Origin: Clostridia bacterium
GTDB lineage: Bacteria; Bacillota; Clostridia; Oscillospirales; Acutalibacteraceae
Assembly (NCBI GenBank): GCA_017452785.1
Contig: JAFTLT010000057.1
Coordinates: 1 to 64,000 of the forward strand
DNA: 64,000 nucleotides
Reading direction: 5' to 3'
Position numbers and translations under genes: made by a program. The notes beneath the pieces were generated by a model. The model was not told the origin of the DNA, ran no database searches, and saw nothing but the letters and a program-made list of their open reading frames with translations. The first letter of the stretch is position 1. The number at the start of each line of letters is the position of its first letter. Positions 30,370 to 55,546 of the stretch are shown here, piece by piece.

Positions 30370-30497
30370 AACTAAGCTGTTTAAAACAGCTTTGCGGATT
30401 AAGCGTATATGCTCCGCCTCGGATTGCTCTGCCGTGTAAAATTTAAGAGCACTTTTGTGTATGTTTCAGCATTGAGTAACGCAAACCAACTAAATAT

Positions 30498-30585
30498 GCG
30501 GATGTGGCGGAATTGGCAGACGCGCTAGATTCAGGTTCTAGTGAAAGTTAATTTCATGTGGGTTCAAGTCCCGTCATCCGCACCA
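30498..30585 (+). tRNA. tRNA-Leu(CAG)
   Basis: An 88-base class II tRNA with acceptor GCGGATG/CATCCGC, anticodon loop containing TTCAGGT (CAG), a long variable arm and encoded CCA. It is followed by a terminator, and the accessory region begins just downstream, so it may also be an integration hotspot. Confidence 0.93.
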
Positions 30586-31156: not shown

Positions 31157-33499
31157 TTAGATATTGGGTACAAAACGCTTTATTATGTTGTATCTTTCAG
31201 GTTCTAACTCTTCGATACCATTATTAAAAACAATTTCTTCCTGATTTATATCCTTTATGTAGTTTTCGGCCCACTCAATATCTTCAAAAGTAAGACCATA
31301 ACGTAGCATCCATATATGCCTATCACTATCCGTACCATATTTGACATATTTGGCAAGCTTTTCTGCTCTTGAGTCTTGTGTAGATTCATAATATTTTTGA
31401 AATGCTGCATAAAAAATATCACTCAAATGAAATCCAATAGTTTTATCCAAATAATCATATGTATCAAAAACAATTCTGTCATAATCTACTTCATTTGCTT
31501 TTATTTCCCTATTTCCGAACATACTGTACAAATTCAACTTCTTATTAGGCAACTCATTGCATTCCGAAACAAACGCAGCATAGAGATTATTCAGTTGTAC
31601 TTGATATCTTAATTTATTTACGCCCACTGAAGATTTAATTTTTTCTTTTAAATCCCTTCTTTCTTTTAGACGACTCGCATAAGCATAACGATAAAAACAT
31701 ATATCTTTAAATGTTTTACAATGAATCTTCCAAATTAAAATTTTAATAGCTGTATTTAAAACACCTTTTTCACCATCGGCAAGCGGACGCTTTAGATACG
31801 AGGAATACAGACGTTCAAATTGTAAATACAGATTCAATTTAAATTCAATATCATCATTGATAGATTTCAATGAAACTAGTTTATCTCCTTGAAACATACT
31901 ATTAAGCAATTGATTTACTATTTCTTGAGTATCTTTATCTGACAGTTTATCAAGTTGATCTTCAGTTAAATTATACTCATCTGATAAAGTATTAGATAAT
32001 ATCGCGTCCTTAAAATCCTTATAATCATCATCAATATCATCGTCTTCTAATAAAGATATATCTTTAAGAGTATCATCAGATGTCATAATCCTTCTAAATT
32101 CAGACATATTACTGCTTTTTACAACTACACTTCCGTAGTCAAACTTAGATTCTAAAGTTGAGCGACCAGCTCTACCAATTAAGTTTTTTAACGAAAGCGG
32201 TCTGCTGGCTTGAAAAGTATTTAAGAAAACAACCTCAAAAGGCATATTAATTCCTTGCTCTAATGTAGATGTTGCAAAACAAATACGGCAAAAACCTTTT
32301 TGAGTAAATTGTTCTAGAATTAATCTCGCCTGTAACGGTAAAGAACCATGATGAACAACTATCCCTCTTTTTAACAAAAATAACATATTAGAATATTTGT
32401 CCATATTCTTATCATCTGTAGCGCCTAAATAGTCCTTAATTTGATTTATTAGTGTTTGGGCTTCATTATTATTAATTGGCTTACATACACTTATATATTT
32501 ATCAAAGTCGCTAAAAACTGTTTTTTTATATATGCTTGTTTTTGTAGTATATATTAATACACTTCCACCATGTTCAATGGCTTTCATAATCGGATCAAAA
32601 TCACAGGCAATTTTCTTATTTCCCATTATGTCTTTATCTATCCCAAAGTGATAAAACTTGTCGTTGTCATATGCATAAAAAATTTGTCCTACATTTTTTT
32701 GGATATATTGGTGCGAAGATGATATATCAGTTTGGAAATGATTTTTTATTATTTGTGCTTCCGGATTAGCTACAAAAGGATGAGCAAATACAAATTTAGC
32801 ATGTGGGTATGTTTTCTGTATTCTTCTTACAATACTATCAAAAAACATACCTCTGGTAGAATCTTCATTGCTAAGTTGAGCCTCATCGAACAGGAAATAC
32901 TCAATATCAAAATCATTTTTATGTTTAAATAATTCTTTACATCTTTCCGGAGTAACTATAAAAATGCTTCTTCTTGCATAACGAGTATTGATTTTATCGA
33001 TAAAAGTTAGAATATTAACGCTTTTATCAGGAATAGCATCAGTGATTCTATTATAGTATTCATTAATTAGTGCTCTTGACGGTACAACAATAACTATGTC
33101 TTTAGTGGAAGAATTAATTACATTTCTAAAAACAAAAGATTTTCCTGTACTGGTAGGAGCTGAAAAACTAAAGCATTGATTGTTATTGATTTCTTGAACG
33201 ATATTTGCTTGTACCGGAGTATATGAATAATTATATGTAGTTTTTATATACCTTTTATACATGCCGAATATTACATCCGTAAGAGAGTTAACGGGAACCT
33301 TTTTATAATGAACTCCCATATACTTTAATATTTGATTACTGTATTTTTGAAAAACTTCATTCTCATATATATAAAGATAAGACAGTATTTCTAAAACCGT
33401 TGTAGAAATTGGGCCATCAGTATATAGCTTCGTAATTGCATAATTAAAAATACTGTCTATTTCTTGATGCTCAATGATTTTTTGTATTACATTATTCAT
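31157..33499 (-). CDS. hamB: Hachiman helicase HamB
   Basis: A 780-residue SF2 helicase. Motifs in order: Walker A APTSTGKS (about 114-121), IVVPSRAL (motif Ia), FDEAQ (motif II, about 200), FATSTLEQGINMP (motif V) and NLIGRAGRS (motif VI), then a 350-residue helical C-terminus. In characterised Hachiman systems HamB translocates on DNA and controls the HamA nuclease, causing DNA loss when phage or damage compromises DNA integrity. It overlaps hamA by four bases (ATGA). The region is notably AT-rich. Identification rests on order, size, motifs and the HamA partner. Confidence 0.88.
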   Translation of the reverse strand: MNNVIQKIIEHQEIDSIFNYAITKLYTDGPISTTVLEILSYLYIYENEVFQKYSNQILKYMGVHYKKVPVNSLTDVIFGMYKRYIKTTYNYSYTPVQANIVQEINNNQCFSFSAPTSTGKSFVFRNVINSSTKDIVIVVPSRALINEYYNRITDAIPDKSVNILTFIDKINTRYARRSIFIVTPERCKELFKHKNDFDIEYFLFDEAQLSNEDSTRGMFFDSIVRRIQKTYPHAKFVFAHPFVANPEAQIIKNHFQTDISSSHQYIQKNVGQIFYAYDNDKFYHFGIDKDIMGNKKIACDFDPIMKAIEHGGSVLIYTTKTSIYKKTVFSDFDKYISVCKPINNNEAQTLINQIKDYLGATDDKNMDKYSNMLFLLKRGIVVHHGSLPLQARLILEQFTQKGFCRICFATSTLEQGINMPFEVVFLNTFQASRPLSLKNLIGRAGRSTLESKFDYGSVVVKSSNMSEFRRIMTSDDTLKDISLLEDDDIDDDYKDFKDAILSNTLSDEYNLTEDQLDKLSDKDTQEIVNQLLNSMFQGDKLVSLKSINDDIEFKLNLYLQFERLYSSYLKRPLADGEKGVLNTAIKILIWKIHCKTFKDICFYRYAYASRLKERRDLKEKIKSSVGVNKLRYQVQLNNLYAAFVSECNELPNKKLNLYSMFGNREIKANEVDYDRIVFDTYDYLDKTIGFHLSDIFYAAFQKYYESTQDSRAEKLAKYVKYGTDSDRHIWMLRYGLTFEDIEWAENYIKDINQEEIVFNNGIEELEPERYNIIKRFVPNI

Positions 33500-34182
33500 A
33501 CATTCACCGCCACAAATATTAATTCCTTATATTGTGATAATTCAGCATATTTTTTGTGTTTTTTTATTCCGCTTATAATCCTATCAGATGATGTTGTTTT
33601 TGAAGAAAACGCAATAGAATATGCCTTTTCACCCTCATGAACGGCATCCAAAGCCTTTTCGCTAAAAAATTTATCTATATCATTTATATCAGATATATCT
33701 TGTTTTGTACGAATAAATCTTGCGACTTGAGTCATACCTACCCCATATGCATTTTGTTTAGCTAAATATTTTGCCTCACCAAAAATTACTATATCGTCAC
33801 TATTTGCAGAATAAAAGTCAAATCCAGGATTACCGATTACTTGTTCTTTAAAAAGTTCCGCTAAAGGAATATCAAGATAACCAAACTTTTGCACAATAGC
33901 TTCTCTAGCTAGTTCAGAAACTACATATTCTCCGGTGTCACTCGTCACTCTATCATCTTTTCCAATTTTCATATTTCGTGCTAAATACTTTGCCGTTTCA
34001 GTTGCTCTTTCTTCGAAACTAGATCGTATATATTTTTTATCGAATCTTGAAATCCAGGATAAATCTGATAGTATGGTTATGATTTCTTTTATTGTAATTG
34101 ATAAATCCTCAACATCTACCCTGATAAACGAAACATTGGTGTTGGGTGAAAAATCTACTGTCCTGTGTTCGAGTATTTTCAT
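33496..34182 (-). CDS. hamA: Hachiman effector HamA (DUF1837)
   Basis: A 228-residue DUF1837 protein with a PD-(D/E)xK-type nuclease core: acidic residue in TSDTGEYVVSELA, NPGFDFYSA carrying the Asp, then FGEAKYL with Glu and Lys (residues about 136 and 138). The C-terminal half has IRTKQDI and a closing strand. HamA is held inactive by HamB and degrades DNA when released. ATG at 34182 is chosen for its AGGAG eight bases upstream; an ATG at 34236 would add 18 residues. Coupled translation with hamB. Confidence 0.87.
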   Translation of the reverse strand: MKILEHRTVDFSPNTNVSFIRVDVEDLSITIKEIITILSDLSWISRFDKKYIRSSFEERATETAKYLARNMKIGKDDRVTSDTGEYVVSELAREAIVQKFGYLDIPLAELFKEQVIGNPGFDFYSANSDDIVIFGEAKYLAKQNAYGVGMTQVARFIRTKQDISDINDIDKFFSEKALDAVHEGEKAYSIAFSSKTTSSDRIISGIKKHKKYAELSQYKELIFVAVNV

Positions 34183-34370
34183 TATGTTCTCCTGTGAAAT
34201 GTCATCAATGAAATTTTTAAAAATAATGACGTACATATAGTTATAGATATTTTATTATATTTTAAATAGGGATTAAATTCCAATACATTTACAAAAACGC
34301 TTCGATTTTCGACAAAAATGCTTGTTTTTCGACCCAGTCGCGCCATTTTTCAATCCGCACATTCGACAAG

Positions 34371-39002: not shown

Positions 39003-39485
39003 ATGGAAGTAAAAGAAATCGGACAACCAAAAACCAAAGCGGAAATAACGGAGCTATTGTCAGACAACGGATTATCGTGCATCCCGATTACATACTACGG
39101 CTGTGACGGTCTGTTTGTGCCGTTTGAAGACTGTGTAAACTGTGACTGCTCATCCGGAATTCCCGTGACCACCTGCAACAAGGATATTTGCATTGTCTAT
39201 CCTCACGAGATTGTGTACATCGCCATTGAGGGCAGAAAATCCGTGATGTATCTGACGGATAGAAAACTTGAAACCTATCACCCCATTGAGCACTGGAAAA
39301 CCGTCCTCGACGAAAAATCCTTCGCCCAACCGCATTACAGCTACATAGTCAATCTAAACTATGTTGCGGAAGTGTCAAAGGAGTTTGTTAAAGTGAGATA
39401 CGGGGATAAGGAAGAGCTGGTTTACACCTCGTCAAGGAAGATTGGGGCGTTTAAGAAGGCTGTGAGCGAGTTTTGTGAAAAATAA
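39003..39485 (+). CDS. LytTR-family DNA-binding regulator without receiver
   Basis: A 160-residue protein. Residues 1-65 include a cysteine-rich stretch (CVNCDCSSG, TTCNKDICIV). Residues about 66-158 are a LytTR domain (EIVYIAIEGRKSVMYLTDRK, FAQPHYSYIVNLNYVAEV). There is no phospho-receiver, so it may respond to a ligand, metal or redox via the cysteines. AAGGAAA precedes ATG. It lies 228 bases upstream of the four-gene operon and is the best local candidate regulator for it. Confidence 0.8.
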   Translation: MEVKEIGQPKTKAEITELLSDNGLSCIPITYYGCDGLFVPFEDCVNCDCSSGIPVTTCNKDICIVYPHEIVYIAIEGRKSVMYLTDRKLETYHPIEHWKTVLDEKSFAQPHYSYIVNLNYVAEVSKEFVKVRYGDKEELVYTSSRKIGAFKKAVSEFCEK

Positions 39486-39712: not shown

Positions 39713-40498
39713 ATGAACAGCAAGAAAGCGTTAAAAAAGAAGTTACGAGTAAAAAAAGTTACATTGCAAAGAAAAAAATATTATTACATTAACCCAATAG
39801 TTAGACTATGGTTGTTTATTATTGGAAAAAGAGATAGTAAGAAAAACATATGCAATTCAGGAAGTTTTCCTTTTGTTGATTTTCAAAAATCAAAGATTAA
39901 TAAATATGCATCCACAATCATGTATAATTTTGAAAGAAAAACGATGTCACTATTTGCCAATTTCGATAAACAACTTACAATGTTGGAACAACAATCATAT
40001 ATAGTAACGGAATTAATCGAAAGACTTGAAAATAAACTCTATCCAGAAGAAATTGTAATTTCAAGTAATGCAAACTTGCCCAACGATATTAAAGAAATGT
40101 TAGAAGTTAAACGTATTAGTGAAAAAAATTTAGAAGAAACAGCTATTAAAATTAGGCGTTTTAGAGAGTATCAACAGAACTTGGCCCCTGTAAGAAAAGA
40201 GCTCTTTAATGAAATGCAGAAACTTCTAGCAATTTATCAGGTTTTGTGTTTTTATGCTGCAAACATCGATGGAATACATAAACAAGCCAATATGCTGATT
40301 AAACAATATATATCGTATATTAATATGAAGATTTCCATATATAAACGTGGTTGGATCACAAATAATAGTCAGAGTGAAAATATTCCTGAACTGTTAGAAA
40401 CAGACATTTTCCTATTATTGGTTCCAAACAGGACGATTTATATTGATGACAAAATAAAAAGAATAATAGAAGATTATGATAAAATAATGAATAATTGA
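39713..40498 (+). CDS. Operon gene 1: cytosolic coiled-coil protein
   Basis: A 261-residue basic protein not recognised as a known family. After a lysine-rich start it has a helical body with coiled-coil segments (about 90-170: FDKQLTMLEQQSYIVTELIE, ISEKNLEETAIKIRRFREY) and FNEMQKLLAIYQVLCFYAAN. No signal peptide. ATG at 39713 follows AAAAGGGG; an earlier in-frame start is less well supported. First of four tightly spaced genes, with spacings of 22, 11 and 12 bases, so probably co-translated subunits. Confidence 0.7.
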   Translation: MNSKKALKKKLRVKKVTLQRKKYYYINPIVRLWLFIIGKRDSKKNICNSGSFPFVDFQKSKINKYASTIMYNFERKTMSLFANFDKQLTMLEQQSYIVTELIERLENKLYPEEIVISSNANLPNDIKEMLEVKRISEKNLEETAIKIRRFREYQQNLAPVRKELFNEMQKLLAIYQVLCFYAANIDGIHKQANMLIKQYISYINMKISIYKRGWITNNSQSENIPELLETDIFLLLVPNRTIYIDDKIKRIIEDYDKIMNN

Positions 40499-40520
40499 AA
40501 CTAGATGTAGGAGTGTATCT

Positions 40521-41012
40521 ATGGCAATTTTTGTTTCTAAAAAAACGCTAAAAATCAATAAGTTCAATATTAGAGATTATCTTCCAAAAAGAATCAAGAT
40601 GAAATTACCAAAAAAAGACAAGTCAATCGTCATGGAGTTCGGTCCCTTCGATGGTATTTCTAGAATCCCATTCGGTGGAGATGTCTTTGGAGAATATGCA
40701 ATAAACCCCTCAACAGAAAAGTTTGAATCTTATTTATCAGAAGAATTATCACTAATACTTGAAATGTCGCCTGAATGTGTTGACGGTCAAAATGGAAATG
40801 TACTTGATAATATAATAGATAAATGGCAGGAAATAGCTGAAAAGAATATTGACGAGCAGAGAAATATGCGAAGTATTGCTTTAAAAACTATCGTCAATTC
40901 AAGGACCTCGAATTTAAAACAAGCAGAAGAATACATAAAATATGAAGAAGAAGAACTAAAAAAAATTGATGATCATCTAATTGAATTAAAACAAAAAATT
41001 AAAAATAGATAG
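40521..41012 (+). CDS. Operon gene 2: small cytosolic protein with coiled-coil tail
   Basis: A 163-residue protein. The first 80 residues are basic then mixed alpha/beta (IVMEFGPFDGISRIPFGGDV), and the C-terminal 60 form a charged coiled coil (LKQAEEYIKYEEEELKKIDD). No signal peptide or known motif. AGGAG precedes ATG. Coiled-coil tails in genes 1, 2 and 3 of the operon may mediate assembly. Confidence 0.7.
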   Translation: MAIFVSKKTLKINKFNIRDYLPKRIKMKLPKKDKSIVMEFGPFDGISRIPFGGDVFGEYAINPSTEKFESYLSEELSLILEMSPECVDGQNGNVLDNIIDKWQEIAEKNIDEQRNMRSIALKTIVNSRTSNLKQAEEYIKYEEEELKKIDDHLIELKQKIKNR

Positions 41013-41023
41013 GAGGTAATAAA

Positions 41024-41920
41024 ATGCAAGGAACAGAATTTGAAATCAAGAATAGTGTAAATAGCTTTTCATTAGAAACTGATGAATTTGGAAATATAGA
41101 ATCTTGGTCGATAAAAAATATGCCAAGCAATATTAGTGCGAGTTTTAAAAAGAAGAAAAAGCGTAAAGATAAAGATCGTGAGAATTTTCTTACAACAGGC
41201 ATACCGCAAATAGGCACTACATATCCAGTCCCTCTAGATAGAGAAGATTTAATTGATTTTGAATATAAAGTTGATCAATGGTATTGTAGATCATGGGTAT
41301 CAATAGTCTCTTTTCTGATTGCAGTGTTTGTGGATGGATTTTGTTTTTTTGAATCAATTGGACATGCTTTTAGTGACCCTGTAATAAAAATTGTTGCAAT
41401 AATTGGTGCTGTACTAGCTGTAGATGCATTACCGATATTTTTTGCATATAACCTTAGGAAAACTCAAATTAAAGAAAAAAGCATGCATATTATTCTTTGT
41501 ATATTGAGTTTATTTGTTTTTATTATTGTGTTAGGTATTTTAGCTTACACATGTATTGGATATGACGAAGGAGGTATGCTATCCCTAATGGTTTTGTTCA
41601 TTATACCAATTGCAACTTCCAGCTTTTGTTTTACCGCGGCTTATATAACTTATGACCCTTTGAAAAATGAGTTAATAAAATACAGCAAACTAAGAATGCA
41701 CAGGATGGAAAATATAAACCAACTTAAAGCATTAATACAGGAAATAGAAGTTGACCCTGATTATGAAACAAAAATGACGGAAATTGAAAATGAAAGATAT
41801 GATAGCGCAAAGAAAAGAATAAAACAATTAAGCGATATGTATAAAGCTATAGTTAGAATTAAACTTGCTGAATTTTTAAAAATTCCTGCCGATACATCTG
41901 ATTTATCACAAAAATTTTAG
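41024..41920 (+). CDS. Operon gene 3: four-helix membrane protein with cytosolic ends
   Basis: A 298-residue protein. A polar N-terminal 85 residues is followed by four predicted transmembrane helices (about 91-113, 120-143, 154-178, 184-209) and a C-terminal coiled coil (MENINQLKALIQEIEVDPDY, KKRIKQLSDMYKAIVRIKLA). AGGAGG precedes ATG. It would anchor the complex in the inner membrane, with both ends in the cytosol next to the products of genes 1 and 2. No family recognised. Confidence 0.72.
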   Translation: MQGTEFEIKNSVNSFSLETDEFGNIESWSIKNMPSNISASFKKKKKRKDKDRENFLTTGIPQIGTTYPVPLDREDLIDFEYKVDQWYCRSWVSIVSFLIAVFVDGFCFFESIGHAFSDPVIKIVAIIGAVLAVDALPIFFAYNLRKTQIKEKSMHIILCILSLFVFIIVLGILAYTCIGYDEGGMLSLMVLFIIPIATSSFCFTAAYITYDPLKNELIKYSKLRMHRMENINQLKALIQEIEVDPDYETKMTEIENERYDSAKKRIKQLSDMYKAIVRIKLAEFLKIPADTSDLSQKF

Positions 41921-41932
41921 GAGGTTTATTAT

Positions 41933-43150
41933 ATGAGATATATTAAATTGATTTTGTGCACACTTGTGTTTACAATAATTCTTACAGGATGTGACAATTT
42001 AACTGCTGAACCGCCCACACAAATTACAGATGTGTGCGTATTACTTGGTGATTTTTCAAATGCAAAAGATGCAGATTTATCTGCAATAAGCGAATGTGTT
42101 GATCCAACAGTTAATTCAAAGGTTAATTTTACTATTTATGCGCTTGATGGAGCACCAGAAGACATAGTTTTAACAAGCGAATATAATAATGGCAACAGAA
42201 CTTCTCCTGATGTAATGAGAGATCACTATGGAAAGTTTGTACATAATGATTTAATCCCAAAAATAAATAATGCTGTACCAAATCAAGAAGAAATAGACAT
42301 TTTAAATGGTTTGTATATGGCAGAAAAGCATCTATCAAAATCAAAAGCAGATTGCAAAAAGTTGCTAATATTTAGCACAGGCATACCTACATCGGGTTAC
42401 ATAAACTTTTCAAACAGTAGTAATATTATCAACTACAATGATGATGAATTGGACTCCTTGATGCAAGAATTTAAAGCAAAAAATCTTTTGCCGAATTTAA
42501 CCGGAATTGAAGTATATTGGTTTAACATTTGCGAAACTGTTGAGCCCCAAATTACTCCTAATAGAGCTAACGCAGTTAAGATTGAAAATTTTTGGAAAAA
42601 TGTTTTTGCAAATTGCGGAGTTGATGAAAAGAATATATCTTTCAATTATTCAATACTTGATAGTAAAAATTCTTCCGAAACAGACAAATACCCGTTTGTT
42701 ACACCTGTTATGTTTGAAGACGAAGAGATTATTTGGTGTTTTACAGATGAAACTGTCCAGTTTAATCCTGGTGAATCAACCTTTTTAAATGAAGAGTTGG
42801 TTTACAAGACTCTCAAGCCTTATGCAGAAAAAATTTGTGATACAACATCAAAAAAATTTATTCTTGTAGGAAGTACAGCAACTTTTGGCGATAAAGACGA
42901 ATGTTTGAAATTGAGCTTAGAAAGAGCAGAAGAAGTAAAAAAAGTATTGTGCAAATATGGAGTTTTACCTAATCGTTTGCTAACATTTGGTATTGGACAA
43001 AATGAAGTTGGTAACAATCTTACTAATCGAGTTGTTGACGTAGAGAACGGTAGTTTTGTTGAAGAACTAGGCAAATTAAACCGAAAAGTTATGGTTGTGG
43101 ATGCATCAACTGCATTAGGAAAACAACTTCTTCAAGAGCTAGAAAATTAA
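41933..43150 (+). CDS. Operon gene 4: lipoprotein with VWA-like and OmpA-like domains
   Basis: A 405-residue lipoprotein. The signal peptide ends LTGC with lipid-anchored Cys20. Residues about 30-230 resemble a von Willebrand A fold (VCVLLGDFSNAKDAD, then KLLIFSTGIPTSG), although the metal site looks degenerate. Residues about 285-375 match the OmpA peptidoglycan-binding pattern (FILVGSTATFGDKDE, LSLERAEEVKKVLCKYGV, RLLTFGIGQNE). It should sit outside the membrane and touch the cell wall. AGGAGG precedes ATG. VWA plus OmpA in one lipoprotein on a mobile element is uncommon. Confidence 0.75.
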   Translation: MRYIKLILCTLVFTIILTGCDNLTAEPPTQITDVCVLLGDFSNAKDADLSAISECVDPTVNSKVNFTIYALDGAPEDIVLTSEYNNGNRTSPDVMRDHYGKFVHNDLIPKINNAVPNQEEIDILNGLYMAEKHLSKSKADCKKLLIFSTGIPTSGYINFSNSSNIINYNDDELDSLMQEFKAKNLLPNLTGIEVYWFNICETVEPQITPNRANAVKIENFWKNVFANCGVDEKNISFNYSILDSKNSSETDKYPFVTPVMFEDEEIIWCFTDETVQFNPGESTFLNEELVYKTLKPYAEKICDTTSKKFILVGSTATFGDKDECLKLSLERAEEVKKVLCKYGVLPNRLLTFGIGQNEVGNNLTNRVVDVENGSFVEELGKLNRKVMVVDASTALGKQLLQELEN

Positions 43151-43245: not shown

Positions 43246-44163
43246 TTATAAGCTTTTAGTTTGTTGTTTAGAGAAAATGCTACTCTCCAATATTCCCTTC
43301 ATCTCCTCATACCCCTTCTGCAAAGCAACCCTCACACTTTCCTCTTCTGACAATTCATTAAGCATTGCAATCTCTTTATACGTTTTCTTCTTACGGCGGA
43401 CCTTAACGGGTTCGCCGTTTTTGTCTTTTTGCATCTCAAATATACTGTGACATTCAGGGCAGAAAGCAAGATTATCAGCAATCATCAGCTGTGTACCGAT
43501 ATCAAGTTCATTATATGCACCCCATACTGCCTCAGACTGCTCTTTTCGGATAAGCTCAAGCTCGGGATTGAAGGTGTTATCACTTGTTACATCTTCTGCA
43601 GTTTCTTCTGAATCTTCATCACAGTATTCCTTATAAAAGGGTATAAACAAGGTGTTACAGAGACCGGCAGCAATAAGCTCACAGGTGAATTTAGGTGAAC
43701 GGTCAATCTGTTCCGCAATTTTTTCAATGTTTTCTTGAGTAGCTGTTTCACCGCACTCTCTGCAAAGAGCCATAGCCTTGCGGAGCATTTTATCCTCATC
43801 GGCATTCGGTATGGTAAGACCGTGCCTCATTGAACGGATATATTCGTGAATCTCATGCTCATAATAATATTTTGCAAAATAAAGGAACGGTACGTTCTGT
43901 GATAAATCATACTTTTCAAGAGCTTTGTAAAGTCCGTGAACAAATACCATTTTCAAATCAGCAAAATGCCCCTGCATAGCATAGTTGTGCACTATGCCGT
44001 AAATCTTATCATTGAGCCTTGGCTCATAAAAGTGCAGAAAGTAGTTAAAATAGCTTTCATCCTTCTCGGTCAGGTAAAGCTCAATATATTCCTGCAAGGA
44101 TTTCCTTTCCTTCGGTGCCGTGGCACAGTGAAACATATATAAATCTTCTTCCCATTTTTTCAT
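43246..44163 (-). CDS. Sigma-70-like factor with inserted zinc-finger motif
   Basis: A 305-residue protein. Residues about 60-125 resemble sigma region 2 (MQGHFADLKMVFVHGLYKAL, KYYYEHEIHEYIRSMRHGL), about 130-175 region 3, and the C-terminal 80 residues region 4, interrupted by CPECHSIFEM and a charged loop. AAAGGAT precedes ATG. Related proteins occur in Clostridia mobile elements. It could direct RNA polymerase to element promoters. It is paired with the DUF6076 gene upstream on the same strand. Confidence 0.65.
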   Translation of the reverse strand: MKKWEEDLYMFHCATAPKERKSLQEYIELYLTEKDESYFNYFLHFYEPRLNDKIYGIVHNYAMQGHFADLKMVFVHGLYKALEKYDLSQNVPFLYFAKYYYEHEIHEYIRSMRHGLTIPNADEDKMLRKAMALCRECGETATQENIEKIAEQIDRSPKFTCELIAAGLCNTLFIPFYKEYCDEDSEETAEDVTSDNTFNPELELIRKEQSEAVWGAYNELDIGTQLMIADNLAFCPECHSIFEMQKDKNGEPVKVRRKKKTYKEIAMLNELSEEESVRVALQKGYEEMKGILESSIFSKQQTKSL

Positions 44164-44181
44164 TATGCCACATCCTTTCCG

Positions 44182-45309
44182 TTACTTTGTCTCCGTATCA
44201 GCGTAAAGCTTTTTACGGCTTAAATCCTTTTTGTACTGTGTTTTGAAATATTCCGGGTCACGCTTGGCTAAAAGCATTCTGTTCCTTGCTATTACCTTTG
44301 CCTTTTCTGCAAAAGCAGGTGTAATTGTACCTCGTAAAGCTTCGGTACGGATACAACTGCAACGCTTATTGTAAATATCCATAATGGGATTGTTTTCTGA
44401 AAGCTCTTTTTTACGGATAGCGGCAGCATACTGTCTGCAGGTAAGCTTCTGACCGTTTATCTTTTCAGGTGCTATTCCGTTGGTACAGTATTTCTGCTTT
44501 CTTGCACTCTGCATAAGGAAATACTTGCCGCATACCTCACATCTTTTAGGATAATGACCGTAGTGTAATCCCTCAAAGAAATCCGTAATAATGAAGCTGT
44601 AAAAGCTGTCAAAGTATAGCTTTCTTGCAACAGTAGTGTACTGACTCTTTATGTTTTTCCTGACCTCAACAAACTCTTCATTTACAGAGAATGTCTTGTT
44701 ACCGAATATCTGCTTTGCGATTGGTAAGAGATGTCCCTCATCGTGCTTTTCAATGTCAGGCAGAGAATTAACAAAAGCAACAAGATTTTTATGAGCATAG
44801 TACATATCGTCACTGATGTTATTGAAGAATGTAATAATTCCGATTAACTCATTTATGATATCTTCACACTCGTTTATATACTCAAAATCGCAATGGCGAT
44901 AAGCAGTATCGACTATAACTTCATATTGAGGTATAAGTCCTATTTCGGCTCTTCGTACCAAGTAATCACAGATACGCTGACCTGTATCTTTGCTGAACAG
45001 AAATGCTACTCTTTCTCGGATAGCATCAAAGTCAAGAGTACTGTAAACAGTAATATTTGGCAGAGCCTTCAGCTCCTCAAGAAACATTCTGCCTGTATCG
45101 GTAAAATTACGGATATTTAGATAGCCGCACCTTAACTGTTTGAGAATATTATGGTTAATTTCGTCTGAAAAGACAGAAATTCTTGCGGCGGTATCATTTT
45201 TATAAAAAACATTCAAAAAATTTGTTGCGAATATACCGGCGGGATAGTTCTTTTTGTTCCAATATGCTCTTCCGTCACGGTATGCGACAGTCACAGAAAA
45301 GGCTCCCAT
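44182..45309 (-). CDS. DUF6076-like zinc-finger protein
   Basis: A 375-residue cytosolic protein. The central and C-terminal part has RCEVCGKYFLM and, about ten residues later, RKQKYC, with a further Cys in CRQYAAAIRKKE, as in a CGNR-like finger, followed by a basic tail. This agrees with DUF6076 proteins of gut Clostridia. GGAGATG precedes ATG at 45309. It is translated just before the sigma-like gene (18-base gap), which suggests that the two act together. Function unknown. Confidence 0.6.
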   Translation of the reverse strand: MGAFSVTVAYRDGRAYWNKKNYPAGIFATNFLNVFYKNDTAARISVFSDEINHNILKQLRCGYLNIRNFTDTGRMFLEELKALPNITVYSTLDFDAIRERVAFLFSKDTGQRICDYLVRRAEIGLIPQYEVIVDTAYRHCDFEYINECEDIINELIGIITFFNNISDDMYYAHKNLVAFVNSLPDIEKHDEGHLLPIAKQIFGNKTFSVNEEFVEVRKNIKSQYTTVARKLYFDSFYSFIITDFFEGLHYGHYPKRCEVCGKYFLMQSARKQKYCTNGIAPEKINGQKLTCRQYAAAIRKKELSENNPIMDIYNKRCSCIRTEALRGTITPAFAEKAKVIARNRMLLAKRDPEYFKTQYKKDLSRKKLYADTETK

Positions 45310-46661: not shown

Positions 46662-47465
46662 TTAAGCAGCAAAAATGGCTTGAGATCTGTGCATAGCAGG
46701 TGTCAAGCCATTTAATTTTAGCTTGATTCTGCGATTGTTGTAATAATCAAGATATTCTTCTAACTCGTTTCTGAAATGTTCTATTGAGTCAAATTCTTGC
46801 AGGTATAACAGTTCTGTTTTCAGTAATCCAAAGAAATTTTCAATTACTGCATTATCCAAGCAGTTCCCTTTACGGCTCATACTCTGCTGTATTCCTTTAT
46901 CAATTAACATCTTTTGATATTGTTTGTGTTGATAATGCCAACCCTGGTCTGAATGAAGAATTAGATTTGTATTATCAGGTATTTTTTCAAATGCCTTATT
47001 AAGCATTTCTGTAACCATACTCAAATATGTATGTTCGCAAATTGTGTATGATACAATATCACCACTGTATAAATCGAGGATAGGTGAAAGATAAAGTTTT
47101 TGGTCAAACAAACTGAACTCTGTTACATCGGTAACCCATTTCTCATTTGGTTTTGAAGCTACAAAATTCCTTTCAAGTAAATTAGGTGCAATTTTCCCTA
47201 CTTCACCTTTGTAAGACTTGTATTTCTTCATCCTGACTTTACACACCAGATTAAGCTGTTTCATAAGCTTTTGTACGGTCTTATGGTTGATTTCGAAGCC
47301 TCTGTTATGTAGTTCTTTAGTTACTCTGCGATAACCGTATCTTCCTTTGTTCTCTATGTAAATACTTGATATTTCTTCTTTAATTTCGAAGTATTTATCC
47401 TCATCATTTCTGTGTTTCACATAGTAGTAATACGTACTTCGAGGGATTCCGGCTATTTCTATCAA
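46662..47465 (-). CDS. IS3-family transposase OrfB (integrase core)
   Basis: A 267-residue rve-type catalytic part. It starts in the linker (IAGIPRSTYYYY), has the HTH_21 region GRYGYRRVTKEL, and the DDE triad regions WVTDVTEFS, LHSDQGWHYQH and NAVIENFFGLLKTE. Normally made as an OrfAB fusion by frameshift near the end of orfA (GAGAAAAAGCG at about 47510). It closes with LNGLTPAMHRS. Intact as far as can be seen. Confidence 0.88.
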   Translation of the reverse strand: MIEIAGIPRSTYYYYVKHRNDEDKYFEIKEEISSIYIENKGRYGYRRVTKELHNRGFEINHKTVQKLMKQLNLVCKVRMKKYKSYKGEVGKIAPNLLERNFVASKPNEKWVTDVTEFSLFDQKLYLSPILDLYSGDIVSYTICEHTYLSMVTEMLNKAFEKIPDNTNLILHSDQGWHYQHKQYQKMLIDKGIQQSMSRKGNCLDNAVIENFFGLLKTELLYLQEFDSIEHFRNELEEYLDYYNNRRIKLKLNGLTPAMHRSQAIFAA

Positions 47466-47500
47466 TAATGATATTTTAAAATCATGCCTCAGCTCCCAAA

Positions 47501-47848
47501 TTACTTTCGCTTTTTCTCTTGCCGTACCCTCTCGGCAACCAAGGCATTCAATTTTTTTAAGTATGCATTCTCCGCTCTTAATCGTTGTACTTCTGCTATT
47601 AAATCTTCTTCAACTTCTTTAGGTAGTTTTCTTGGACGACCTGTGCTTTTTCTTCCTCTGCGTTCAATGTACAAACCTTCAGGTCCTTCTTCAAGATATA
47701 TTCGCTCCCATCCTGTAACCACAGTATCAAACGAAACACCGAACTGCCTTGCAGCTTCTTTGTAGCTTAACTTTTCTTTGTGCATTGTTTCTACTACTTT
47801 TTGCTTGAATTCATCTGTGTATTTTTTGTTTGGTATTCCTTTTGGCAT
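47501..47848 (-). CDS. IS3-family transposase OrfA
   Basis: A 115-residue DNA-binding protein with a helix-turn-helix (LSYKEAARQFGVSFDTVVTG) and a leucine-zipper-like tail (LRAENAYLKKLNALVAERV). It ends EKKRK at an A-rich stretch that can shift ribosomes into the OrfB frame. GAGGGG precedes ATG at 47848. Confidence 0.85.
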   Translation of the reverse strand: MPKGIPNKKYTDEFKQKVVETMHKEKLSYKEAARQFGVSFDTVVTGWERIYLEEGPEGLYIERRGRKSTGRPRKLPKEVEEDLIAEVQRLRAENAYLKKLNALVAERVRQEKKRK

Positions 47849-47934
47849 AAAAAATCACCCCTCCTGTTAAACATTATATCACAATGTCTAACATTTGGGG
47901 TGCATTTCAGAGGAGAGCAGTTATACACTAAATA

Positions 47935-48417
47935 TTAAAGATACATTTCCAATTCTAAACATTTCCATTCTTCGCCGAGAACAGTATATGTTTCTGTCTT
48001 TTCTAAAACAACATCTTTAAAGCCAACAGCTTTATAACAATAATAAGCCGATTCATTATTTTCAAATACACCTAAAGAAACCTTTTTTGCACCATAGATT
48101 TCTTTTGCACATTTCAAACCTACCTGAAGCATTGCTTTACCGTATCCTTTGCCACGCTTTGCAGGGTCAACAACTACAAACCCAAACCTCAGTTCATCAA
48201 AACTTTCTGATGGTCTTCTCATTGTAAAGAATCCTACAATCTCATCATCTTCAATAACAGTAAAAGCCATAAGATTTTCAACGAAGCAGAATTTCTTTTT
48301 GCTTATTGGATACTTACCCATAACTCCTGCAGACCACTTGTAAAAAGATATTTTATCTTTGCTCCAGGAAAGTATTATATCTGCATCATTTTTGTTATAA
48401 GGTCTTAATCTTAACAT
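47935..48417 (-). CDS. GNAT-family N-acetyltransferase (RimJ/RimL type)
   Basis: A 160-residue acetyltransferase: RPYNKNDADIILSWSK at the start, FVVVDPAKRGKGYGKAMLQV as the acetyl-CoA loop, and ESAYYCYKAVGFKD near the end. Substrate unknown. GGGGGG precedes ATG. It forms a leftward group with the HIT and Nudix genes. Confidence 0.83.
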   Translation of the reverse strand: MLRLRPYNKNDADIILSWSKDKISFYKWSAGVMGKYPISKKKFCFVENLMAFTVIEDDEIVGFFTMRRPSESFDELRFGFVVVDPAKRGKGYGKAMLQVGLKCAKEIYGAKKVSLGVFENNESAYYCYKAVGFKDVVLEKTETYTVLGEEWKCLELEMYL

Positions 48418-48454
48418 TTGTATCCCCCCTTAATTAACTGTTTTAATTCTATTT

Positions 48455-48946
48455 TCATAAGAGATTTTCCAATTCTGCAAGCAGTTTTGTTTTCATATCT
48501 TCCAATTCGTCGGGAGAAGGCTTGTTATCTTCTGACCACATTATCTCCTTTGGTAACCACCAAACAGGACCTTTGCCTTTGTTTCCATAATCCAACAAAT
48601 CACCGGCTTTTCTCGGAAAGATATGCCAATGTAAATGAATATCGCCATTGCCGAGACATTCGTAGTTTATCTTTTCTGCACCGAAAGTATTTTTTACAGC
48701 TTCAGCTACTATTGTCATTTCAAGCAAATATTTTGTTCTGAAATCGATATCCAAATCAAAAAGCTCAACAACGTGCTGTTTACAAATGAATAATGAGTAG
48801 CCGTAAAAATGATGATTCCATCCTAAAATAACATAGCCGGTTTCAAGTTCTTTTACAAACCACGGATTTTCACCTTTTTTGATTTGCTCAATAACATTGC
48901 ACATGTCACATTTTACTTTATTAAAAGGACTGAATTTAATTTTCAT
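48455..48946 (-). CDS. HIT-family nucleotide hydrolase or transferase
   Basis: A 163-residue protein with the histidine triad DIHLHWHIFPRK and N-terminal CDMCNVIEQIKKGENPW that holds a Cys pair. HIT enzymes hydrolyse nucleoside polyphosphates or phosphoramidates. AGGAGG precedes ATG and overlaps the Nudix stop, so the two nucleotide-cleansing enzymes are coupled. Confidence 0.82.
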   Translation of the reverse strand: MKIKFSPFNKVKCDMCNVIEQIKKGENPWFVKELETGYVILGWNHHFYGYSLFICKQHVVELFDLDIDFRTKYLLEMTIVAEAVKNTFGAEKINYECLGNGDIHLHWHIFPRKAGDLLDYGNKGKGPVWWLPKEIMWSEDNKPSPDELEDMKTKLLAELENLL

Positions 48947-49394
48947 TATTTTCTCCTCCTGAATTAGTTTTCAACTTCTCTGCATATTGTTCCAATGCCC
49001 AATTCTGCATTTCAGCAAACATTTTACCTTTTATTTCCTCATATTTGAACCACATTAAAATATGGTCTGTTTCTGTTGGCTCAGAAATTTTTTCGTTGAG
49101 TTCACCAATGTAATAACTCCGAATTGGATGGAAATACCCTAATTTAGGATGTGTGGTATAGGTTTCAGCAGAACATAATTTTTCTTTTATTGTAGCAGTA
49201 TAGCCGGTTTCTTCAATACATTCTCTTTTTACGCAATCCTCGTGGCTTTCGTTTCCATCTAAACCTCCACCAAGAAGAAAGTATCCTTTATCAGTTCTTA
49301 TTACACCTATTTTATTGTTATGAACAGGGATTAAATATGCACCTTCTCTATCTGCATATTCAGCTTTTTCTTTAATACCAAATACTTTATGCAT
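48936..49394 (-). CDS. Nudix hydrolase
   Basis: A 152-residue Nudix protein with box GGGLDGNESHEDCVKREC then IEETGY, which binds Mg2+ and cleaves nucleoside diphosphate-linked molecules. Substrate unknown. ATG at 49394 has GGGGGTG upstream. First of the Nudix-HIT-GNAT group. Confidence 0.85.
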   Translation of the reverse strand: MHKVFGIKEKAEYADREGAYLIPVHNNKIGVIRTDKGYFLLGGGLDGNESHEDCVKRECIEETGYTATIKEKLCSAETYTTHPKLGYFHPIRSYYIGELNEKISEPTETDHILMWFKYEEIKGKMFAEMQNWALEQYAEKLKTNSGGENNEN

Positions 49395-49465
49395 ATTTGC
49401 ACCCCCGTAATTCTAATAAACACATTATATCATATCAACACCACAAATTTCAATCCGTTTACATA

Positions 49466-49500
49466 CACCTGTTACCTCAAAAGTATCAGGTGCTTTTTTA
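49466..49500 (+). terminator. Intrinsic terminator upstream of the partition/mobilization block
   Basis: CACCTG/CAGGTG around a 15-base loop with a T run. Similar in layout and loop to that at 46436-46463. Confidence 0.65.
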
Positions 49501-49566
49501 TATTCAAAATTCTAAATGAAAGGAAGTGTTTATCTTTAACATTCGTGACAGACCCATTTTCCCACC

Positions 49567-49590
49567 GCACCCACGAGGGTGCTTTTTTTA
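49567..49590 (+). terminator. Second intrinsic terminator upstream of parM-like gene
   Basis: GCACCC ACGA GGGTGC followed by seven T. Confidence 0.75.
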
Positions 49591-49640
49591 TGCCCAAATC
49601 TATTATCTAACAAAATTTTAATTCAAAGGAGTAATTCAAA

Positions 49641-50561
49641 ATGAAGAAATTTAACGATGTAATCATCATCGGTGTTGACCACGGTTATGGCAACATCAAA
49701 ACTGCAAACCACTGTTTCAGAACAGGCATTACAGCTTATGATTCAGAGCCGCTTTTCACAAAGGATATGCTTATTTACGGTGGAAAGTATTATCTTATCG
49801 GTGAAGGACACAAGGAGTTCCTACCCGACAAAATCAAAGACGAGGACTATTATGCCCTCACCCTTGTGGCGATTGCAAAGGAGTTAAGTGTTGAAAACTT
49901 AACGGAAGCCACAGTTCACATTGCGGCAGGTCTACCCCTCACTTGGACTGCAGGTCAGAAAGAGAGCTTCAAAGCATATCTTACAAAGAATGAAGAAGTA
50001 ACTTTCACTTGGCAGCATACGGAGTACAAAATTAAAATCGCAGGTGCAAGCATCTATCCGCAGGGATATGCGGCGGTTTCGCAGTTTGCAACCAAAATGG
50101 ATGGTGTAAACCTTGTAGCTGACATTGGCAACGGTACTATGAATGTGCTCTATGTCATTAACGGCAGACCGCAGTCAGAGAGAATGTACACAGAAAAGTT
50201 CGGCACGCATTTCTGTACTGTTGATATCCGTGAGGCCTTCCTCAGAAAAACACAGAGAGAAATCAATGAGCACATTATTGATGAGGTTCTGTGTAAGGGT
50301 ACTGCAAACATTGTTCAGGCGGATATGAAGATTATCAAGGCAGAGGTACAGAAGTATGTAGCTGAAATCTTTCACAGGCTCCGTGACCACGGATACGATG
50401 AAAATACTATGCTTCTGTGTATTACCGGAGGTGGCGGTTGCCTTATAAAGAATTTCTATAAGTTCAATGCAGACCGCATTCAGTTCGTTGATGATATCTG
50501 TGCGGCGGCAAAGGGTTATGAGTACCTTGCCGAAACTATGATGAAAAGTGGCAAGATATGA
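49641..50561 (+). CDS. parM: ParM/StbA-family actin-like ATPase
   Basis: A 306-residue actin-fold protein. Phosphate 1 is VDHGYGNIKT, phosphate 2 VADIGNGTMNV and the adenosine region CITGGGG. In plasmids ParM filaments push DNA copies apart with an adaptor, ParR, bound to a centromere. AAAGGAG precedes ATG. The stop overlaps the next gene (ATGA), which is ParR-sized. Presence on an integrative element suggests a circular or replicating stage that needs segregation. Confidence 0.85.
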   Translation: MKKFNDVIIIGVDHGYGNIKTANHCFRTGITAYDSEPLFTKDMLIYGGKYYLIGEGHKEFLPDKIKDEDYYALTLVAIAKELSVENLTEATVHIAAGLPLTWTAGQKESFKAYLTKNEEVTFTWQHTEYKIKIAGASIYPQGYAAVSQFATKMDGVNLVADIGNGTMNVLYVINGRPQSERMYTEKFGTHFCTVDIREAFLRKTQREINEHIIDEVLCKGTANIVQADMKIIKAEVQKYVAEIFHRLRDHGYDENTMLLCITGGGGCLIKNFYKFNADRIQFVDDICAAAKGYEYLAETMMKSGKI

Positions 50562-50887
50562 GTGAGTACCGCATAAATGTCCGCTTTAATTTAAGCGACA
50601 CAGAACACACGAAAATCATTGATTATCTGAACAGCCTTGATAAAGAAAAGTATAAGTCAAGAAATCAGTTTATCATTGATGCGATTAAATCGGCTATTGC
50701 TTATACAGAGAAACAGACGGCAGATGATGAACTTATCCAAAAGTTTCGTGAAATTCTGAAAGAGGAACTGTGCGGCATTTCAGTTACTGCAGCATTTCCT
50801 TCTTCGGCGGGTATTGATATGGAATTGACAGAGGAGCAGAAACTGAAAAATGATGCAGGGGCGATTGCCTTTCTTGATATGTTTTAA
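50558..50887 (+). CDS. ParR-like partition adaptor
   Basis: A 109-residue protein with a ribbon-helix-helix-like N-terminus (INVRFNLSDTEHTKIIDYLN, KYKSRNQFIIDAIKSAI) and an acidic C-terminus. Position and coupling to the ParM gene make it the likely centromere-binding adaptor. No family motif is decisive. Confidence 0.65.
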   Translation: MSEYRINVRFNLSDTEHTKIIDYLNSLDKEKYKSRNQFIIDAIKSAIAYTEKQTADDELIQKFREILKEELCGISVTAAFPSSAGIDMELTEEQKLKNDAGAIAFLDMF

Positions 50888-50940
50888 CGGTGCCAAAACA
50901 TTCAGATTTCGGAGCCGCAGACAAAAATGCAATAAAAAAC

Positions 50941-50958
50941 GGCACCGCTTACGGTGCC
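50941..50958 (+). terminator. GGCACCG hairpin
   Basis: GGCACCG CTTA CGGTGCC, 7-bp stem, between the ParR-like and DUF3847 genes. No T run follows; it may be a site for a protein or an mRNA stabiliser. A further GGTGCC copy lies at 50890. Confidence 0.4.
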
Positions 50959-50979
50959 AACAGATTGGAGGTGATATTT

Positions 50980-51177
50980 ATGACCGAGGATGAGAAAAAG
51001 CTGATTCAAGCCAAGCACAGACTTGAACAGGCAGAAAACCGCAACCGTAAAAAGGAACGCACAGAGCGAAACCACAGACTTATTGTAGAGGGTGCGATTT
51101 TAGAGAAGCTGTTACCTGAAATCAAGACTATGAACTTTACTGATATTGAGGGGTATTTACTCGAAAAGCTGAATTAA
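50980..51177 (+). CDS. DUF3847-family protein
   Basis: A 65-residue helical protein: DEKKLIQAKHRLEQAENRNRK, then RLIVEGAILEKLLPE, as in DUF3847 proteins found beside relaxase genes of Gram-positive mobile elements. GGAGGTG precedes ATG at 50980. Probably a mobilization accessory protein; role unproven. Confidence 0.75.
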   Translation: MTEDEKKLIQAKHRLEQAENRNRKKERTERNHRLIVEGAILEKLLPEIKTMNFTDIEGYLLEKLN

Positions 51178-51194
51178 AGGCTTATATATTTCCC

Positions 51195-51238
51195 TTAAGG
51201 GCGCACTTACTCACCACCGTAAAGGCGGTGCAGTGCGC
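51195..51238 (-). other. oriT: oriT with IncQ/MobQ-type nick site
   Basis: On the minus strand GTAAGTGCGCCCTTA (51210-51196) matches the RSF1010/IncQ nick core TAAGTGCGCCCT. The usual adjacent hairpin, CACCG/CGGTG (51215-51230), lies on its 5' side, with an outer GCGCACT/AGTGCGC pair. It lies 1.4 kb before the MobA/MobL relaxase gene, the matching family. Cleavage would fall in the GCG/CCC region by analogy. Confidence 0.8.
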
Positions 51239-51340
51239 TCTCCGAGGGTGTAGACGAAAAATCACTATTACTTCTCAGCCGTGACCGCATATTCCTTCGA
51301 TAGCAGATTTAGTATACAAATTTATTATATAATCCTCTTA

Positions 51341-52537
51341 TCAACTGTTCTTATACGCTTCATCAATGCGTTCACATACAAGTTCAGGCGTTATTTCATC
51401 CCAATAATTAAAATATACAACTTTAATTCCATTTAATTCACTTAATTTTCTTTTCTCTTCATCACGCTTTTTTACTTTTTCATAAGCTTCTGCTCCGCCA
51501 AAAAATTCAACAGGTTCAAAGTGTTGTTTTCCCTGATATTCAACAGCAATTTTAAGTTTTGAAATAAAAACATCATATGACATTTGTCCACCGAAAGAAC
51601 TGTGCAAGAAAAAAGGGCGATATTGAGAAACAACACCATAATCTCTATAGTACTTTTTGATTATCTTTAACACATATTCTTCAGTCTTCCATTTGTACTC
51701 AGGTTTACTGTATTGTATTTTTTCTATGTAAGCAAACTTGCCTAATTTAGCTTTTTGCACACTATCTCTAACTGCATTATAAATATCAATTTCATCTCGA
51801 AAATATTGGGCAGGCAGAGAATAATAAAGCAGGTTTTCTTGTAATCTACGGAACATTCGTTGTCCTTTGTGAGAAAAAAGACTATCAACAAAATCTTCAT
51901 CAACAAATCTATTGAATTCGGATAAACCAATGCCATCCAGTCTTTTGTTTCCATATGCACTGTGAGCTAAATTATCTGCAATTTTCAAAACGAAAGGGTG
52001 CACCTTTCCTTTGATTGCATCTGCAACAAAAGAAATTTTCCCATCAGCTGCTTTGAGTTCAAAAATAACAATTGTATATGGAATTCCTTCCCAAGCATCT
52101 AATCGTTCTTTCAGCTTGATTTCGGGACAATGTTCCATAACATAGTCTGCGTGAGAAAAAATACCATTTGAAAGATATTTGGCATTGGCACCTTTAAATC
52201 TTGCATATCTAACAAATGTAGTGTATGCACCTATTTCTTCCTGTATTTCACGCATAAATGATCCGTGCTTATAATTAGGAAGTAAGGTGTTTGGTGTTAA
52301 TTCCTCAATATCAACACCACAAACTCCCTCGGAAAGATACCATTTTCTATTTTCTTCAATAGTCATAAAGTCACAATGAACATCGTATTTTATGTAAAAT
52401 ACCACTGTATCGGCGAAAACGACAACCATATCGTTATCAGTAATTAAATATTTTTGCATATCATAATTTTCATATAAACTGAAAAACTTTTTAACAACCA
52501 TTTCGGCATATTGTCGAGTTAATGAATTTAATTCCAT
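51341..52537 (-). CDS. Predicted nuclease with Vsr/PD-(D/E)xK-like C-terminus
   Basis: A 398-residue protein. The C-terminal 100 residues contain MSYDVFISKLKIAVEYQGKQ, then HFEPVEFFGG, and KKRDEEKRKLSELNGIKVVY: an Asp, then Glu-x-Gln, typical of Vsr-fold nucleases. The first 290 residues are unrecognised and mixed. ATG at 52537 follows GAGGTG; the longer frame is rejected since it would overlap the relaxase start. It is divergent from the relaxase gene. It may be a defence or competition nuclease; alternatively a DNA-processing enzyme. Confidence 0.68.
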   Translation of the reverse strand: MELNSLTRQYAEMVVKKFFSLYENYDMQKYLITDNDMVVVFADTVVFYIKYDVHCDFMTIEENRKWYLSEGVCGVDIEELTPNTLLPNYKHGSFMREIQEEIGAYTTFVRYARFKGANAKYLSNGIFSHADYVMEHCPEIKLKERLDAWEGIPYTIVIFELKAADGKISFVADAIKGKVHPFVLKIADNLAHSAYGNKRLDGIGLSEFNRFVDEDFVDSLFSHKGQRMFRRLQENLLYYSLPAQYFRDEIDIYNAVRDSVQKAKLGKFAYIEKIQYSKPEYKWKTEEYVLKIIKKYYRDYGVVSQYRPFFLHSSFGGQMSYDVFISKLKIAVEYQGKQHFEPVEFFGGAEAYEKVKKRDEEKRKLSELNGIKVVYFNYWDEITPELVCERIDEAYKNS

Positions 52538-52620
52538 TGTTTTCACCTCGCAGAACCTTTGTTTGACAATTATACCACACCTAAACCACCACCAACAACA
52601 ACTTAACAAAAGAAAGGACG

Positions 52621-54375: not shown

Positions 54376-54376
54376 A

Positions 54377-55234: not shown

Positions 55235-55245
55235 GGAGGTAGCCT

Positions 55246-55446: not shown

Positions 55447-55546
55447 AGAAACGGCGGGTGCGATGTAAAAGTCGCATCCGCACATTTAACAAAAACAAGT
55501 ATATGAATTACAATATTTACAGTAAATCAAAGGAGGTAAAATATAT

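Follow-up and report, generated by a model that had tools for sequence, protein, structure and literature searches.

What might four small genes do for a bacterium when they recur side by side and together reach from the cytosol to the outside of the cell? The question is raised by a cassette, here called A-B-C-D after its four genes, in a 64,000-nucleotide stretch of a Clostridia bacterium of the family Acutalibacteraceae (assembly GCA_017452785.1, contig JAFTLT010000057.1); this whole stretch is referred to below as the window. A first-pass annotation, made from the letters alone, had described the cassette as an unrecognised operon with the topology of an envelope-spanning complex and had suggested a novel defence, cell-surface or competition system. 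The reading we favour, and to which we give about an even chance, is that A-B-C-D is an envelope-spanning sensor and transducer module of bacterial immunity serving exchangeable effectors.

The A-B-C-D gene set in Clostridia

As annotated, open reading frames (ORFs) for the four closely spaced genes were found on the + strand, separated by 22, 11 and 12 bp; genes C and D are preceded by readable AGGAGG-type sites. Failure of the gene set to co-occur in other genomes had been named beforehand as an outcome that would count against the proposal; the set was found to recur. A total of 13 distinct cassette loci were identified, every one within the window's class (Clostridia), and in 10/13 of them A, B, C and D are consecutive on one strand. 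Gaps in these ten range between -134 and 71 bp; both large overlaps belong to G1341 and are probably due to start codons placed too far upstream. At G307, A-B-C lie together and D follows about 10 kb further on, and at G441 (C and D left) and G1273 (D left) the cassette is cut by contig ends. On sequence evidence, A-B-C-D is a conserved unit.

The genome samples searched with D or C overlap, and counts from separate searches are not additive. With D as the query, 4/197 genomes of the order were matched and three matches were real, the fourth (G098) being partial only. A C profile matched 9/391 genomes of the class, 8/394 of the order and 4/150 of the family, of which five (by context), five and all four, respectively, were real. 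The weak C matches in G253, G299, G375 and G512 (class sample) and in G110, G587 and G869 (order sample) were discarded as chance, no A, B or D being recognised alongside; in G512, the contig ends on the side where D would be expected. A D profile gave full-length matches in 2/348 genomes of the phylum and in 4/120 and 2/120 genomes of two further samples; the partial matches, 33/35, 6/10 and 8/10 respectively, covered the OmpA part or signal segment only and were set aside. A scan of genome contigs returned three loci already known, and the viral contigs searched held no relative. The first profiles were built from three loci and the other loci were scored against them, with E-values applying to small ORF sets. 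The profile picked out A in G307, G609, G667, G1234 and G1341, and position alone identified it in G449, G740 and G746; for B, the profile sufficed in G307, G609, G667, G740 and G1341, and position alone served in G449, G746 and G1234.

Four proteins from the cytosol to the outside

Hydropathy of the four proteins upheld the annotated topology joining cytosol, membrane and outside, with no membrane helix in A or B, four in C (residues 91-109, 123-141, 156-174 and 185-203) and a signal segment with lipobox (LTGC, Cys20) in D. The cytosolic coiled coils ascribed to A, B and C fared less well, as a heptad test was not significant for A (p 0.097), B (p 0.117) or the C tail (p 0.14), and they were dropped as an established feature. 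Profile scans with Pfam, NCBIfam and PADLOC gave no match reaching a curated cut-off for A, B or C, and the Pfam OmpA match in D (1.4e-8) was the only one over cut-off in the cassette. Across seven aligned A proteins, G38 and D41 are invariant.

The sole invariant column in an alignment of 15 C proteins is that of Asp104, which lies in the first membrane helix. P195 and T198 in the fourth helix are each present in 12/15 C proteins and are missing from the three proteins of Actinomycetota described below. Among Clostridial C proteins, hydropathy indicated four helices in 10/12 and three in 2/12 at the threshold used. The structure model of C, made from a 4-sequence alignment, had a mean predicted local distance difference test score (pLDDT) of 50.6 and a predicted template modelling score (pTM) of 0.35, too weak for fold comparison; in this low-confidence model, helix four continues as a helix of residues 185-242 and is followed by a returning helix (253-285). 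A match of C to the NCBIfam sporulation protein YtaF was sub-threshold (8.6e-4, 18.8 bits versus a cut-off of 149.6).

For D, the annotated lipoprotein nature and OmpA-like domain both held, and the lipobox pattern was found in 11/13 Clostridial D proteins; the annotated vWA-like domain is only probable. Several NCBIfam OmpA-type models matched D below their cut-offs. The D model (mean pLDDT 64.3, pTM 0.49) showed an N-terminal domain of alternating alpha and beta elements followed by a C-terminal domain of OmpA-like form, and Foldseek matched it to Pal, OmpA and MotB domains (best 1.7e-7) and to Ku70/80 chains (9.9e-7, ~250 columns, TM-score 0.26, root-mean-square deviation 8.6). Since Ku contains a vWA-type domain, the latter match suggests a vWA-type fold in D. 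A D homologue from Streptomyces matched VWA_2 at 4.7e-4, under the Pfam cut-off, and carries DDSAS where most other D proteins show G-x-x-x-N. The D frame of G441 (L020:8366-9283) stops at residue 305, before the OmpA-like domain, and is either truncated or naturally short.

In Acinetobacter baumannii OmpA, the Asp of a GxTD motif and an Arg are described as binding diaminopimelate (PMC6572160). Like the C-terminal domains of Pal, MotB and OmpA, D keeps the fold and the ligand-site Arg, the latter in 16/16 D proteins having the OmpA domain; in contrast to them, the position of the GxTD Asp is Ala in 13/16 and Ser in 2/16, with Asp in 1/16. In G667, G740 and both Rhodococcus D proteins, an Asp stands one residue after the canonical position. 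Because the canonical Asp is replaced in 15/16 proteins, a role of D as a plain peptidoglycan anchor appears doubtful.

Divergent versions were found in Actinomycetota. Window D matched none of the plasmids searched at 1e-5; tblastn with the D of G036 matched five plasmid records, three of them from Actinomycetota at >=80% coverage (Rhodococcus NS1, Nocardia PE-7 and Rhodococcus DN22) and the other two being a Streptomyces record at 73% coverage and one Pal-type partial match. The Nocardia genes are ordered A-like, B-like, four-helix C-like, a 163-aa gene and D, and on the Rhodococcus plasmids the order and orientation of the cassette parts differ, the parts lying within about 7 kb on one and 14 kb on the other; size, position and composition served to pick out the A-like and B-like genes of Actinomycetota. 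Profile-profile comparison of the Clostridial and Actinomycetota proteins gave 100% for D (E 5.8e-43, 340 columns), 31% for C (hhalign; E 5.2e-4, 188 columns, first-helix Asp aligned), 20% for B (E 0.0012, 40 columns) and nothing for A. We regard homology across the phyla as firm for D, probable for C and suggestive for B, the Actinomycetota A being assigned by position only. No Actinomycetota protein was picked up by the hidden Markov models of Clostridial A, B or C. Among the plasmids, Nocardia C found itself only (E<=0.01), Rhodococcus D found only the three plasmids already known, and Streptomyces D found itself and seven OmpA-part matches; phage records gave no match with window D and two Pal-type partial matches only with Rhodococcus D.

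The Streptomyces D gene lies in a run comprising a TIR gene, an NTPase-like gene (nSTAND3 at only 0.044), a 301-aa gene, D and a multi-helix protein, which has an Asp in its first helix but no significant match to the C profile. On the Rhodococcus plasmids (L113, L115), related large tetratricopeptide-repeat (TPR) genes surround D, and a CHAT-domain gene (6.5e-9) is present in DN22, suggesting a larger conflict-type locus.

Features of the cassette and two neighbouring genes in the window
Feature	Position	Strand	Description and basis
gene A	39713..40498	+	261 aa, no membrane helix, Lys/Arg-rich N-terminus, G-K-R-D at residues 38-41
gene B	40521..41012	+	163 aa, no membrane helix, motif VDGQNGNVLDNII
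gene C	41024..41920	+	298-aa membrane protein; four membrane helices, then helical tail (low-confidence model)
C first membrane helix (residues 91-109)	41294..41350	+	hydropathy
C Asp104 codon, first membrane helix	41333..41335	+	Asp in 15/15 aligned C proteins
C fourth membrane helix (residues 185-203), with P195 and T198	41576..41632	+	hydropathy, alignment
gene D	41933..43150	+	405-aa lipoprotein
D lipobox LTGC (residues 17-20)	41981..41992	+	pattern
D probably vWA-like alpha/beta domain (about residues 30-239), without DxSxS metal-site motif	42020..42649	+	model, alignment
D OmpA-like domain (residues 277-362)	42761..43018	+	Pfam; Arg331 kept, Ala replaces diaminopimelate-binding Asp
HamB helicase of Hachiman, neighbour outside cassette	31157..33499	-	PADLOC 1.3e-60
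receiver-less LytTR regulator, neighbour, probably outside cassette	39003..39485	+	Pfam 6.7e-14

Defence genes and mobile DNA around the cassette

Selected neighbours of the cassette were scanned with Pfam or PADLOC and others were read by eye. Genes of defence type turned up close to the cassette in several further genomes, as the first-pass annotation had led one to look for: one was nearby at 7/13 loci (G000, which is the window with its HamB, G036, G145, G307, G449, G740 and G1341), or at 8/13 if the kinase/PP2C pair of G746 is counted. At G145, A-B-C-D is preceded by a TIR gene, a gene for a 195-aa protein and one for a ParA-type ATPase, all in a contiguous same-strand run with gaps or overlaps of <= about 35 bp; the TIR gene matches the PADLOC spbK model at 1.1e-86 over nearly its full length, and the ATPase (AAA_31 1.4e-15) has hydrophobic segments as read from its sequence. 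The G036 locus holds a TIR-kinase gene divergent from A, TIR-Sel1 and further TIR genes, and a kinase (6.1e-13) fused to a domain of Card1 type, whose match (6.9e-6) is slightly below cut-off. Near the G307 cassette are PP2C, three TIR genes and a 1507-aa protein with matches to kinase (weak, 0.011), Card1 (1.5e-4, under cut-off) and PADLOC CARF_PDDEXK (1.2e-10). A HATPase protein with a sub-cut-off TIR match, a C5 methylase and AbiEii/AbiEi are found in G449. Cas10 is near the cassette in G740 and G1341, the latter also having RAMP and, after D, a separate vWA gene (VWA_2 2.2e-6). G746 has PP2C and a kinase with Sel1 repeats and sub-threshold AAA_16/NB-ARC matches. The very large proteins at L005:16015-19872 and L022:6653-11176 have kinase-like (weak in G307) and Card1-like endonuclease domains, and the stretches between these domains matched no Pfam family at the thresholds used.

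Searching the 13 cassette genomes with TIR_2 gave 15 matches in 7 genomes, of which 5/15 were within 5 kb, 7/15 within 10 kb and 9/15 within 20 kb of the cassette. Under uniform placement, the matches within 10 kb (G036, G145, G307 and G449) have a P of 4.5e-6 and those within 5 kb (three genomes, without G449) a P of 5.7e-5. Because uniform placement ignores the clustering of defence genes in islands, what this proximity demonstrates is a link with immune DNA, not a common function. For Cas10, 2/5 matches were within 12 kb (P 9.7e-4), a distance picked after seeing them, and at 10 kb there was one match only (P 0.044).

Several observations weigh against the favoured reading. At G441, G609, G667, G1234 and G1273 no defence gene was found within what was scanned or read, the genomes having been searched for TIR_2 and Cas10 only and the neighbours mostly read by eye; a neighbour at G441 has similarity (35.7% over 112 aa) to a portion of a TIR-TPR protein encoded at the G036 locus. 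The window genome (89.8% complete) gave 0 TIR_2 matches. Defence genes cluster in islands, so the adjacency of the cassette to them may be hitchhiking. In addition, the sequence link between the C proteins of the two phyla is weak (31%, E 5e-4) and that for A is absent, the structure models are weak (mean pLDDT as given above for C and D), and the residue replaced in nearly all D proteins is the canonical peptidoglycan-binding Asp.

The first two of these observations, together with the OmpA-like domain and lipoprotein anchor of D, would suit the main rival explanation, in which the cassette is an envelope maintenance or stress-response module carried as cargo of accessory DNA with no immune role; D would sense or hold wall material, and C with A and B would signal damage. 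We consider this a minority possibility, well short of an even chance, as the distribution of the cassette is patchy (the 4/150 genomes of the family, with the two other genus members sampled lacking it), the proximity of TIR genes exceeds chance and the G145 cassette continues a run that contains an SpbK-type gene.

The DNA around the cassettes bears on a second alternative, that they act in surface or entry exclusion or in DNA or protein transfer of mobile elements, with the complex blocking or serving a conjugation apparatus. The actinomycete copies are on plasmids, two of which have a relaxase gene no further than 9 kb from D; VirD4-like ATPases are near the cassette in G036 (two, and a ClpP-type protease) and G1341, a ClpP-type protease gene adjoining one in both; and relaxase and serine recombinase genes lie 9-14 kb from the window cassette. 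We nevertheless find such a role unlikely, in that transfer proteins were seen only in G036 and G1341 among the Pfam-scanned neighbours, some neighbours being unscanned and no systematic search for transfer genes having been made. The adjoining ClpP-type and VirD4/TraG-like genes (L031:2265-4444 in G036, L098:4191-6067 in G1341) encode proteins that are homologous between these genomes of different families (33.7% and 23% identity), and a further VirD4-like gene is at L005:7086-8714.

Contact-dependent competition or toxin export, with the neighbouring enzymes as cargo, seems very improbable: these enzymes are diverse and exchangeable, which speaks for it, but by Pfam the conserved A-D set contains neither a secretion ATPase nor a channel, and the recognised neighbours are of TIR, kinase, phosphatase and nuclease types, which are known mainly from intracellular immunity.

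In the window itself, Hachiman had been placed near the cassette. Its HamB was confirmed and the adjoining HamA candidate (33496-34236) had no PADLOC match; the two would make up a separate, putative Hachiman system about 5.5 kb from the cassette. The LytTR regulator noted before the cassette is a real gene; it was rejected as a cassette part, since no homologue was found among the ORFs read at the other loci (phmmer E<=0.01). Convergent with the cassette, at 43246-45309 on the - strand, are a sigma-factor-like gene (NCBIfam FliA/WhiG 9.7e-7, far under cut-off) and a DUF6076 gene (1.5e-45); the sigma-like gene was likewise excluded, having no homologue near the other loci by the same search. 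The region 46662-57076 has the look of a mobilizable element, carrying transposase-like genes (read from sequence), a MobA/MobL relaxase (3.6e-81) and a serine recombinase (1.4e-31). A tRNA-Leu gene begins with a stretch of 24-29 bp (30494-30519) of which extra copies, exact or almost exact, lie ~135-380 bp away from tRNA-Leu-like copies in the genus members G1447, G1442, G572 and G1453; these may be attachment-site remnants.

Proposed mechanism and comparison with known systems

If A-B-C-D is an immune sensor and transducer module, the four proteins might act as one complex in which D touches the wall or another surface partner outside the membrane. C would transmit this contact to the cytosol, perhaps together with movement of ions or protons at the first-helix Asp, and A and B, docked on the tail of C in the cytosol, would pass the signal on to exchangeable effectors, such as TIR NADases, TIR-kinases or a Card1-like nuclease. 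The trigger could be phage entry, lysis or another envelope insult. At the window locus no effector was recognised among the genes scanned or read; here the effector might act in trans or have escaped recognition, or the cassette might act alone.

A bolder proposal, which we put forward tentatively and think more probably wrong than right, is that the cassette represents a new class of immune receptor spanning the Gram-positive envelope in Clostridia and Actinomycetota, made of a vWA/OmpA lipoprotein that monitors the outside, an ion-coupled four-helix transducer unrelated to MotA/ZorA and having a membrane Asp of its own, and two adaptors to interchangeable TIR, kinase and nuclease effectors, and forming the convergent counterpart of Zorya. 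To our knowledge, only a few bacterial immune systems sense trouble at the envelope, and among those studied well Zorya alone has an OmpA-type domain outside the membrane. If Gram-positive lineages had a second design, apparently unrelated and with swappable TIR, kinase and CARF-nuclease effectors, envelope sensing would be shown to recur as a principle of immunity. Direct tests are offered by the invariant Asp and by the SpbK-linked run, and the module is small and clonable.

No paper was recognised as describing the A-B-C-D gene set in the literature searched, which did not extend to most subscription journals or to bioRxiv preprints. Among known effectors, SpbK has a model that fits the TIR gene upstream of A-D in G145. 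The SpbK TIR NADase is triggered by the phage portal YonE, and the available part of that account mentions no membrane module (PMC12847820), in contrast to the position of the TIR gene beside A-D in G145. A TIR gene, the feature shared by SpbK and Thoeris, is in the loci of G036, G145, G307 and, below cut-off, G449, and was not seen in the window genome.

The iSTAND ternary conflict systems (Kaur et al. 2020) are described as immune-type operons in which OmpA or another wall-associated domain stands behind a membrane segment (PMC7159879). The cassette resembles them in having an OmpA domain in what may be an immune-type operon and differs in that this domain is not fused to an effector. Neither iSTAND nor a vWA-MoxR pair with an NTPase was found with Pfam among nine window proteins scanned (the cassette and five flanking genes), MoxR not being searched for as such, and the vWA-like domain occurs only inside D. 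Stators of the flagellar, Ton and Tol type have an Asp in the membrane core; the Asp of the cassette lies in the first helix of C, a different type of subunit.

The first-pass annotation had drawn a parallel to Zorya while seeing no sequence match to ZorA-D, and we agree on both counts. Nothing convincing was found, the PADLOC ZorB model matching D at E 0.03 over the OmpA part only. In sequence comparison, C had no MotA_ExbB match at E<=1 in Pfam or, by profile, among PDB chains, and no PADLOC match, and PADLOC found no ZorC, ZorD or ZorE among the nine window proteins. Membership in Zorya was rejected for want of a MotA/ExbB component, of the ZorB architecture and of a Zorya effector in those nine proteins. 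Whereas ZorB is a single-helix membrane protein with both the Asp and the OmpA domain, the cassette has its membrane Asp on the four-helix C and its OmpA domain on a lipoprotein, behind a vWA-like domain, and it has two extra cytosolic proteins, A and B. The likeness is one of design: ZorAB is described as a complex that spans the envelope, with an OmpA-like domain on the outside, a helical tail in the cytosol, a membrane Asp and exchangeable effectors (PMC11890865). By this analogy, which we would as readily accept as doubt, A-B-C-D may work like ZorAB with exchangeable effectors, built from other protein families.

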